DNA of 64,000 nt from positions 2,294,001 to 2,358,000 of the forward strand of contig NZ_CP120997.1 of the NCBI RefSeq assembly GCF_030719295.1, read 5' to 3'. The stretch is from Streptomyces sp. Mut1. Lineage in GTDB: Bacteria; Actinomycetota; Actinomycetes; Streptomycetales; Streptomycetaceae. This document shows, piece after piece, positions 20,125 to 26,485 of the stretch. Under the pieces are notes generated by a model, which saw nothing but the letters and a program-made list of their open reading frames with translations, made no database searches and was not told the DNA's origin. Both the position numbers and the translations under genes were made by a program. Numbering within the stretch: position 1 is the first letter of the stretch; each line of letters starts with the position of its first letter.

Positions 20125-22998
20125 CTATGCGGGAACGATGTTCACCAGCTTCGGCGCCCGGACGATCACCTTGCGGATACCGGCCCCGTCCAGCGCGGCG
20201 ACGACGGCCGGATCGGCCAGGGCCAGTGCCTCCAGCTCCGCGTCCGTGACCGACGGGGAGATCTCCAGGCGCGCCTTGACCTTGCCCTTGATCTGCACCA
20301 CGCAGGTCACGGTCTCGTCCACGACGTACGCCGGGTCGGCCACCGGGAAGTCCTGGTGCACGACCGACTCCGTGTGGCCCAGCCGGTGCCACAGCTCCTC
20401 GGCGATGTGCGGGGCCAGCGGCGCCACCAGCAGCACCAGGGCCTCGGCGACGGAGCGGGGCAGCGGGCCGCCCGCCTTCGTCAGGTGGTTGTTCAGCTCG
20501 GTGACCTTGGCGATGGCCGTGTTGAAACGCATGCCGGCCATGTCGCCGCCGACGCCGTCGATCGCCTTGTGCAGCGCGCGCAGCGTGTCCTCGCCGGGCT
20601 CGCCGTCCACGACGGTGACCTCGCCGGTCTCCTCGTCGACGATGTTGCGCCACAGCCGCTGCAGCAGCCTGTACTGGCCGACGACCGCACGCGTGTCCCA
20701 GGGCCGCGACACGTCCAGGGGACCCATCGCCATCTCGTACAGACGCAGGGTGTCCGCGCCGTACTCGCCGCAGATCTCGTCGGGCGTCACGGCGTTCTTC
20801 AGGGACTTGCCCATCTTGCCCAGGACGCGGGAGACCTTCTCGCCCTGGTAGTAGTAGGCCCCGTCGCGCTCCTCGACCTCGGCCGCCGGGACCGCGATGC
20901 CACGGCTGTCCCGGTAGACGAACGCCTGGATCATGCCCTGGTTGTACAGCTTGTGGAACGGCTCGGCGGACGAGACGTGGCCCAGGTCGTGCAGCACCTT
21001 GGACCAGAAGCGGGCGTACAGCAGGTGCAGAACGGCGTGCTCCGCACCGCCCACGTACAGGTCGACGCCCCCGGTCGGCTGCCCCTCGCGCGGGCCCATC
21101 CAGTACTCCTCGATCGCCGGGTCGACCAGCTTCTCGGAGTTGTTCGGATCCAGGTAGCGCAGCTCGTACCAGCAGGAACCGGCCCAGTTGGGCATGGTGT
21201 TCGTCTCGCGGCGGTACTTCTTCGGGCCGGCGCCGTCGCCCAGGTCCAGCGTGACGTCGACCCAGTCGGCGTTGCGCGACAGCGGGGTCTCGGGCTGGGT
21301 GTCGGCGTCGTCCGGGTCGAAGGTGCGCGGCGAGTAGTCGTCGACCTCGGGCAGCTCCAGCGGCAGCATCGACTCGGGCAGCGGGTGGGCGATGCCCTCC
21401 TCGTCGTACACGATCGGGAAGGGCTCGCCCCAGTAGCGCTGGCGGCTGAACAGCCAGTCGCGCAGCCGGAAGTTGACGGTGCCCTCGCCGACGCCGTGCT
21501 CCTTCAGCCACTCGGTGATCCGGGCCTTGGCCTCGGTGACGCCCAGGCCGTTCAGGGATGCCTCGTCGTTGGCGGAGTTCACCAGCTTCGCGTCGTACGA
21601 ACCGAAGGCGTCCTGCCACGTCGAGGCATCCGTGCCGCGGTCGTCGGACGGCTCGACCACACAGCGCATCGGCAGCTCGAAGGCGCGCGCGAAGGCGAAG
21701 TCGCGCGCGTCGTGCGCCGGTACGGCCATGATCGCGCCGGTGCCGTAGCCCATCAGGACGTAGTCGGCGATGAAGACGGGGATCTTCTCGCCGCTGACGG
21801 GATTGGTGGCGTACGCGCCGGTGAAGACGCCCGTCTTGTCCTTGGCCTCGGCCTGCCGCTCGACGTCGGACTTGGCCGCCGCCTGCTTGCGGTACGCGGT
21901 GACCGCCTCGGCCGGGGAGGCGTGGCCGCCCGTCCAGACCGGGTGCGTGCCCTCGGGCCAGGCGGCGGGGATGATCCGCTCGACCAGCTCGTGCTCCGGC
22001 GCCAGCACCATGTACGTGGCGCCGAACAGGGTGTCCTGGCGGGTGGTGAAGACGGTGATGCTGCCCGCGCCGTCGACCGGGAAGTCGACCCGCGCACCCT
22101 CGGAACGGCCGATCCAGTTGCGCTGCTGCAGCTTGATGGCCTCGGGCCAGTCCAGCCCGTCCAGATCGTTCAGCAGCCGGTCGGCGTAGGCCGTGATGCG
22201 CATGTTCCACTGGCGCAGCTTGGCCTTGAAGACGGGGAAGTTGCCGCGCTCGGAGCGGCCGTCCGCGGTGACCTCCTCGTTGGCCAGGACGGTGCCCAGG
22301 CCGGGCGACCAGTTGACCGGGGCGTCGGAGGCGTAGGCCAGCCGGTAGTCACCCAGCAGGTCCGCGCGCTCGGCGGCGCTCAGCTCGCTCCAGTCACGGC
22401 CGTCCGGGGTGGCGCGCTCGCCGCTCTCGAACTGGGCGACCAGCTCGGCGATCGGCCGGGCCCGGTCCGCCTCGGTGTCGTACCAGGAGTTGAAGATCTG
22501 CAGGAAGATCCACTGGGTCCACTTGTAGTACTCGGACTCGATCGTGGCGAACGAGCGGCGCTTGTCGTGGCCCAGGCCCAGCCGGCGCAGCTGCGCCGTC
22601 ATGTTCTCGATGTTGGCCTCGGTCGAGATCCGCGGGTGGGTGCCGGTCTGGACGGCGTACTGCTCCGCGGGCAGGCCGAAGGCGTCGAAGCCCAGGGTGT
22701 GCAGGACGTTGTGGCCGGTCATCCGCTGGTGGCGGGCGAAGACATCGGTGGCGATGTAGCCCAGCGGGTGGCCGACGTGCAGCCCCGCACCCGAGGGGTA
22801 CGGGAACATGTCCATGATGAACTTCTTCGGCTTGGCGGCCAGCTCCGGGTCGCCCGCCAGGTCACCGGTCGGGTTGGGCGCCTCGTACGTGCCCTCGGCG
22901 TCCCAGAAGTCCTGCCAGCGTGCCTCGATGTCGGCGGCCATCGCTGCCGTATAGCGGTGCGTCGCAGCGACGTCGGCTGCGGAATTCGTCTCGCTCAT
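20125..22998 (-). CDS. leuS: Leucyl-tRNA synthetase
   Basis: 957 residues of class I aminoacyl-tRNA synthetase. The HIGH motif appears as HVGHPLGY, the KMSKS motif as KMGKSLKN, and the CP1 editing domain with [13 protein letters not shown] lies between them. It charges tRNA-Leu. The start is taken as ATG 22998 (MSETNSAAD), which matches family length; an in-frame ATG 27 nt upstream is possible. The 5' region carries a leucine-rich leader peptide and a terminator, so expression probably responds to leucyl-tRNA level. Confidence 0.96.
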
Positions 22999-23064
22999 GA
23001 TCCTCAAAGCTCCATCGATCGTCATCTGCCGGCGCCCACGTTTACGGACACTCGTCCACGGAAA

Positions 23065-23090
23065 CGAAAAATCCCCTCGCACAGGAGGGG
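23065..23090 (-). terminator. Attenuator-type terminator in the leuS leader
   Basis: On the reverse strand CCCCTC-CTGTGC-GAGGGG is followed by ATTTTTCG, a 6-bp GC stem with a five-T run. That is unusually canonical for Streptomyces. It lies between the leader peptide and the leuS start, about 67 nt before the ATG, so it would terminate transcription inside the leader rather than at a gene end. Confidence 0.75.
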
Positions 23091-23135
23091 ACGCCGCGCC
23101 GATGCCGACCAGGCATTCTCACCGGTCGGGACTGA

Positions 23136-23174
23136 TCAGCGCGGCTCGCTAAGCAGAAGGCCTACGGCACGCAT
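23136..23174 (-). CDS. Putative leuS leader peptide (Leu-Leu-Leu)
   Basis: A 12-codon ORF on the reverse strand encoding MRAVGLLLSEPR then TGA. Codons 6-8 are CTT CTG CTT; CTT is rare in Streptomyces, so two of them around CTG in such a short ORF is striking. TACCCT ends 6 nt before the ATG, so the transcript may be leaderless. Downstream are mutually exclusive pairings (CCGACC/GGTCGG at 23105-23129, ATGCC/GGCAT at 23102-23116) and then a T-run terminator. This is the arrangement of ribosome-mediated attenuation. Function is inferred, not shown. Confidence 0.7.
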   Translation of the reverse strand: MRAVGLLLSEPR

Positions 23175-23241
23175 GGCGTCAGGGTACCGCACGGACCCGG
23201 TCCACCTCCGGGCGGTTGTCCCCGCCGGACTCCGCGCACAC

Positions 23242-23282
23242 GGAACAGCGGGCCATCCGAACCGGATGACCCGCTGTGTTCC
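23242..23282 (-). terminator. Terminator after the first tRNA-Ala
   Basis: GGAACAGCGGG pairs with CCCGCTGTGTTCC (one bulge), with an inner ATCCG/CGGAT stem, 11 bp beyond the 3' end of the leftward tRNA gene and upstream of the leuS leader. Confidence 0.8.
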
Positions 23283-23292
23283 TTCTTCACTG

Positions 23293-23365
<73 letters not shown>

Positions 23366-23479
23366 TCGTTGCGCCGCCCGGTCTCCCTGGCGACATCGAG
23401 AACAGTACCGGTCACCCCGGCCGTCCACCAAATCGATTCCGGTCCATCCGGTTTTCACCGGCCGGAGGCGGGGAAGCCG

Positions 23480-26407: not shown

Positions 26408-26412
26408 GATTG

Positions 26413-26485
<73 letters not shown>

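Follow-up and report, generated by a model that had tools for sequence, protein, structure and literature searches.

A probable leucine-responsive attenuator of leuS in Streptomyces sp. Mut1 with a conserved hairpin abutting the predicted terminator

Results and discussion

The leucyl-tRNA synthetase gene leuS of Streptomyces sp. Mut1 is preceded by a short element that is probably a leucine-responsive leader-peptide transcription attenuator, the counterpart of LeuL2 of Streptomyces lividans. It lies in a stretch of 64,000 nucleotides of contig NZ_CP120997.1, hereafter the window, and comprises a leader open reading frame with three consecutive Leu codons, a first hairpin designated P1 and a predicted intrinsic terminator hairpin designated T (Table 1). 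The accessible text of PMC8079986 describes LeuL2 of S. lividans TK24 (MRAVRLLLSEPR) before leuS, on a leaderless transcript which continues with a hairpin and uridines; in that of Seliverstov et al. (2005; PMC1262725), 'classical candidate attenuators' are predicted upstream of leuS in S. avermitilis and S. coelicolor. The element of the window shares with LeuL2, as described there, a 12-codon leader with three leucines directly 5' of the same gene and a hairpin followed by the U run, and its peptide is identical but for one residue (Gly where LeuL2 has Arg at position 5). The leuS attenuator instance is therefore essentially known, which settles the doubt expressed in an earlier, sequence-only reading of this DNA as to whether it had been described before. 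The present analysis adds the breadth of its spread and the architecture of abutting hairpins. In their accessible parts, neither the main text of the S. clavuligerus Term-seq paper nor the paper on attenuation in Mtb names leuS.

Table 1. Features of the leuS locus of Streptomyces sp. Mut1 (positions in the window).
Feature	Position	Strand	Basis
-10 box TACCCT, 6 nt 5' of leader ATG	23181..23186	-	sequence
Leader ORF leuL, MRAVGLLLSEPR and stop, 12 codons	23136..23174	-	sequence; kept among relatives
Control codons CTT CTG CTT (Leu 6-8)	23151..23159	-	sequence and codon counts
P1 5' arm GCCGCGCTGAT, spanning Pro and Arg codons and stop codon	23135..23145	-	fold and covariation
Variable inner hairpin CCGACC...GGTCGG within P1, missing from short-looped relatives	23105..23129	-	fold and alignment
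P1 3' arm ATCGGCGCGGC	23093..23103	-	fold and covariation
Predicted intrinsic terminator hairpin T, GTCCCCTC-CTGTGC-GAGGGGAT	23071..23092	-	fold, terminator scan, covariation
Terminator T run, TTTTT	23067..23071	-	sequence and terminator scan
Likely Shine-Dalgarno GAGGA of leuS	23001..23005	-	sequence
leuS, leucyl-tRNA synthetase, 957 aa	20125..22998	-	homology; NCBIfam

Organisation of the leader

The leader ORF that the sequence-only reading had noticed before leuS is present on the minus strand and reads ATG CGT GCC GTA GGC CTT CTG CTT AGC GAG CCG CGC TGA. The start codon of leuS was picked by homology, and the encoded protein scored 894.9 bits against the NCBIfam model TIGR00396 leuS_bact (cut-off 548.4). 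In the predicted fold, the two arms of P1 form an 11-bp stem which encloses a smaller hairpin; P1 ends at 23093 and T starts at 23092 with no nucleotide between them, and leuS begins 68 nt past the end of the T run. The pairing of CCGCGC with GCGCGG that had been pointed out earlier was located inside this stem (23144-23139 with 23099-23094), and the hairpin with its five-T run ahead of leuS was recovered as well.

A terminator scan of positions 22900-23400 returned two sites, both nested versions of one hairpin, namely T (shuffle mean 0.2), and a simple scan of the same interval for promoter-like sites returned none. Taken as a whole, the 177 nt have an ordinary fold energy (z -1.07; 27 of 200 shuffles equally good). 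The stretch from the last Leu codon to T was matched in stability by 16 of 1900 dinucleotide shuffles (95 distinct leaders, that of the window included), and the leader element is real, beyond chance. By analogy with LeuL2 of S. lividans, we infer that the leader RNA starts at or beside the A of the ATG, i.e. that it is leaderless.

The minus strand also carries a pair of tRNA-Ala(GGC) genes 3 kb from each other (23292-23365 and 26412-26485), which score equally in Rfam. The former is located a short way upstream of the promoter of leuS and has a GC-rich hairpin of its own behind it, placed by eye at about 23276-23246.

Conservation of the leader among leuS loci

The LeuS N-terminus was searched for in three overlapping sets of genomes, drawn from the genus (199 genomes), the order (99) and the class (148), and 140 distinct leuS loci were taken from them, mostly as best-scoring matches rather than as a random draw. 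A duplicate of the window (L001) was removed, and all counts over the 140 loci include the window's own locus (L002). A leader was accepted when a run of Leu codons occurred together with CCG[CT][GA] and a terminator-like hairpin, with a span of 0-11 nt searched between Leu and CCGCG. By these criteria, 106 of the 140 loci carry the leader and 34 are without the element; it is present at all 66 loci, the window's own among them, in which the LeuS N-terminus is at least 79% identical and at 40 of the 74 more distant ones.

The last Leu codon is CTT in 100 of the 106 leaders and CTC in the other six; among the 1019 Leu codons of the aligned leuS starts from these 106 genomes, CTT occurs only twice. 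Its distance to CCGCG is equally constant, with 6 nt in 105 leaders and 3 nt in one. In 101 of 106 leaders, the stop codon is reached inside the P1 arm or beyond it. As the remaining five stop ahead of CCGCG and keep this motif at unchanged spacing, CCGCG looks like a constraint on the RNA rather than on the peptide, and a peptide constraint on the conserved Pro-Arg end was rejected. All 106 leaders have an in-frame start preceded, at 6-7 nt, by a TAnnnT box, as compared to 131 of 5300 random positions, at which boxes 4-9 nt away were allowed; this test settles on whichever in-frame start first shows a box and is somewhat permissive. In two loci (L013 and L017), short repeats of the GTCCGTAGACGTG type, identified by eye, lengthen the interval between terminator and leuS.

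Covariation and geometry of the two hairpins

Of the 97 distinct leaders, 62 were selected by a script as candidates for the alignment, a set of 44 divergent leaders plus one in three of the close relatives. Seven of these (L081, L082, L088, L089, L097, L100 and L122) had long or unusual loops or were near-copies and were left out of the main alignment of 55 rows. In this alignment, P1 and T together show 95.9% standard pairs, and eight of 17 pairs are changed on both sides, in a total of 35 cells, a result reached by none of 500 shuffles. Restoring the seven leaders (62 rows) gave practically the same values, with 95.8% standard pairs, 8/17 pairs, 36 cells and again 0/500 shuffles. Sliding of the pairing partners abolished the signal of both hairpins in the 55 rows, and RNAalifold independently yielded P1 and T. 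The covariation is uneven, with 22 of the 35 double-change cells assigned to the outermost pair of T and only six to P1. The alignment across relatives that had been recommended as a check in the sequence-only reading thus retained the three leucines, the stems and the T run, with some compensatory changes.

The same reading had called the stems mutually exclusive. This was not borne out, as P1 and T adjoin and T is predicted in nearly all leaders and ribosome states; exclusivity through common bases was rejected, because the two hairpins have none in common. An extension of T into P1 is impossible in 97 of 97 leaders, and P1 can be extended into T by 1 bp in two of them and not at all in 95. 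The gap between P1 and T amounts to 0-2 nt in 95 of 95 leaders; the same gap arose in 58% of shuffled upstream halves, and the abutment is therefore not improbable for one sequence.

All 97 distinct leaders were folded in four states, namely without ribosome and with a ribosome halted at the first Leu codon, at the last one or at the stop codon, assuming a footprint of 12 nt beyond the first A-site base. The mean probability of T was 0.97, 0.99, 0.98 and 0.93, respectively, and values below 0.5 were obtained for 1, 0, 0 and 3 of the 97 leaders (L138 without ribosome; L026, L049 and L080 with a ribosome at the stop codon). For the leader of the window, T had a probability of 1.0 in all four states. 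P1 was formed in nearly all leaders unless it was masked (mean 0.98-0.99). As T is predicted across all ribosome states, equilibrium folding alone yields no switch.

Proposed mechanism and alternative explanations

Attenuation is commonly described as the formation of one or the other of two overlapping hairpins. In the trp attenuator of E. coli, antiterminator and terminator have a whole segment in common. The leuS leader resembles this system in its control codons, in a stop codon near the second segment and in its intrinsic terminator. It also has the run of cognate codons in a short leader ORF and the predicted terminator between leader and gene that characterise a classical overlapping attenuator, but among the candidates constructed here no well-supported antiterminator has nucleotides in common with the terminator, although one of another form may exist; the two conserved hairpins, found in many families, do not overlap.

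We propose the following sequence of events. The mRNA would start at or beside the leader ATG, as reported for S. lividans, and the ribosome would therefore load at the 5' end. With ample Leu-tRNA, it would proceed to the stop codon and cover the 5' arm of P1; with P1 blocked, T could form and transcription would end before leuS. When Leu-tRNA is scarce, the ribosome would stop on CTT CTG CTT, upstream of P1, and P1 could form while RNA polymerase passes and act as the antiterminator. With the control codons directly 5' of it and the stop codon inside its arm, P1 is the natural candidate for this role. As P1 and T have no base in common, P1 would presumably hinder the closure of T by crowding in the RNA exit channel and not by competition for bases, which is the weakest step of the scheme: T must close beside the RNA-DNA hybrid, and a helix of about 10 bp at its foot should hinder this closure. 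That P1 acts on T in this manner is a tentative suggestion which may well prove wrong. The synthesis of leuS is probably raised when leucine is scarce. If the suggestion holds, antitermination by the position of P1 alone would represent a different way of controlling intrinsic termination.

An adjacent pair of antiterminator and terminator, with mutants, was proposed for the 'fast' attenuator of ilvBNC in C. glutamicum in the accessible text of PMC11857589, according to which expression rose 7-8-fold in terminator mutants, while antiterminator mutants had moderate-to-weak effects. This attenuator resembles the leuS leader in that its leader peptide starts from about the RNA 5' end and the base of the antiterminator lies beside that of the terminator; its control codons are those for Leu and Val. 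However, its hairpins have a GCC trinucleotide in common and H1 was proposed as an anti-antiterminator, as far as this text goes, whereas the leuS set is without a shared trinucleotide. The attenuators of two species in the accessible part of PMC1262725 are described there as classical, with antiterminator and terminator hairpins, whereas the P1 and T described here do not overlap and extend to many more families.

We regard it as unlikely that the leuS leader works by classical four-segment attenuation, with CCGCGC as segment 1, GCGCGG as segment 2 and the terminator arms as segments 3 and 4. Stalling of the ribosome on the last Leu codon would then mask segment 1 and leave segment 2 to pair with segment 3 on its CCUGU side, which would block the terminator, while without stalling 1:2 and 3:4 would form. 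The short fixed spacing fits a masking of segment 1, the terminator loop is well conserved, and a weak GCGG.G/CCUGU helix appears in the folds of several leaders, including that of the window, if segment 1 is masked before synthesis of the 3' arm. Moreover, 88.1% of the 2:3 cells can pair as compared to 36.6-74.4% in slid versions, and just 19 of 500 shuffles matched the covariation score. However, this helix contains a single double-change cell and 130 of 500 shuffles pair equally well; its closing pair is lost in 16 and the next pair in 10 of the 55 rows, it does not occur in the folds listed for L062, L067, L070 and L087, and T prevails at equilibrium. The 2:3 antiterminator was consequently rejected as the main explanation and kept as a rival. 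Leucine-driven attenuation, as put forward in the sequence-only reading, remains the best interpretation and finds good support in anatomy and comparison, whereas the mutually exclusive stems described in that reading are unsupported and the classical antiterminator constructed here found little support.

It also seems improbable that P1 is a pro-terminator which stacks on T and stabilises it or pauses the polymerase, so that a ribosome on the leader would remove P1 and raise readthrough. The element would then report translation of the leader more than a shortage of leucine. Consistent with this explanation, P1 and T abut and co-exist in the predicted structures, and changes of the regulatory codons in the sibling ilvB leader of S. 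coelicolor were without effect, as cited from Craster (1999) in the accessible text of PMC1262725; nevertheless, regulation of a synthetase gene would have the wrong sign if the ribosome were not released rapidly at the stop codon, and the constraint on the CTT codon would be left unexplained. A riboswitch, T-box or protein-bound leader in which the ORF is incidental is most improbable. T-boxes are predicted for ileS of some actinobacteria in the accessible part of PMC1262725, but the inner loop of P1 varies freely whereas codons and spacing are fixed. At the gathering threshold, Rfam detected nothing but the two tRNAs in the window; below it (E up to 10), two weak matches over the leader were obtained, neither of them a T-box. 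A known RNA family was rejected, the best of these matches being sul1 on the other strand with 20.5 bits (gathering threshold 36.2).

Spread of the leuS element

An RNA model, R1, was built from the 55-row alignment of leuS leaders, so part of its matches are obtained by construction. In the genome of the window, R1 gave a single strong match (1.9e-18; next best 0.99). Matches with E up to 0.1 were found in 75 of the 148 genomes of the class sample, a number that includes chance matches, because among 14 further stretches around R1 matches off the leuS match list three (L184-L186) were chance-like. The 65 strongest matches (E up to 1.6e-6, one per genome) include 62 located directly upstream of leuS. 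Of the others, one precedes a LeuS-like start (G310), one lies at a contig end (G333) and one precedes a citramalate-synthase-like gene (G346). A survey by Lopatovskaya from 2010 may extend the known leuS cases.

The same leader precedes two types of LeuS with N-termini less than 50% identical (e.g. L135, L138 and L139). The 62 matches comprise 35 before a LeuS with an N-terminus at least 60% identical to that of the window and 27 before the second type (<50%), and the genomes of three of these 27, those of L135, L138 and L139, were part of the R1 training set. Two LeuS types behind one leader suggest that the gene was replaced behind a retained leader or that the leader is very old.

A scan of named genomes with an exact pattern, formulated so as to pass over the usual Streptomyces codons, yielded at least 120 stretches. 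Among the matches listed are Amycolatopsis, Actinokineospora, Kitasatospora, Jiangella, Catenulispora, Kineosporia, Serinicoccus, Nocardioidaceae and others; leuS follows directly downstream in 76 of the 80 matches listed, and the other four have 12-301 bases left. Also among the matches listed is a contig (L206) which bears the label of a Chloroflexi metagenome bin and carries the leader pattern with leuS behind it; this may reflect mis-binning or transfer.

Related leaders upstream of cimA, ilvB and probably ilvA

Leaders with a geometry like that of leuS precede cimA and ilvB and probably ilvA. As a rather speculative proposal, about which we have more doubt than confidence, leuS, cimA, ilvB and probably ilvA might belong to a class-wide family of compact leaderless branched-chain attenuators, in which control codons are followed within a few nucleotides (mostly 4-8) by a hairpin that abuts the terminator without a common base and acts by crowding of the polymerase exit channel, the leader being kept before two LeuS types. 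The common geometry predicts branched-chain control of cimA, ilvB and probably ilvA.

Although trained on leuS alone, R1 also gave weak matches in other genomes to leaders which precede other genes and have Ile or mixed codons. NCBIfam cut-offs were passed by the protein of L180 (cimA) and by those of L177 and L187 (ilvB); the other cimA cases found with R1 (L176, L178, L179, L181 and L183) were assigned by reading the translations. Abutting-hairpin leaders were thereby found before the acetolactate synthase gene ilvB and before a probable threonine ammonia-lyase gene (L182), the protein of which has threonine ammonia-lyases as best matches, below the cut-offs.

The genome of the window contains a cimA gene for citramalate synthase (NCBIfam 635 bits, cut-off 450), preceded by the leader VSSFVMIIGSRRAGPQ (L188, G000:C1:5676708) with a hairpin and then a terminator without a gap. 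In a class sample of 60 genomes with 30 cimA loci (L316-L345), 20 loci have a leader by the criteria applied and 10 have none. The gap to the terminator is 0-2 nt in 20/20 of these leaders, and the last control codon is 1-8 nt away from P1; further leader peptides are VALPLIIA and VTCATRLIIGLRVD. What precedes cimA in 20 of 30 class loci is probably a leaderless attenuator with Ile codons and a similar geometry. A search of the open-access literature for citramalate synthase and attenuation returned no description of a cimA attenuator and matched only archaeal work, a second search gave none by title among the matches listed, and cimA is not mentioned in the accessible text of PMC8079986 and PMC1262725.

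The ilvB leader of Streptomyces is similar in geometry to that of leuS and differs from it in its mixed Ile, Leu and Val codons. In the genome of the window, the ilvB leader peptide IlvL reads MRTRILVLGKRVG (L192); the last control codon is separated by 4 nt from the first paired base of P1, and the hairpin abuts the terminator with no gap.
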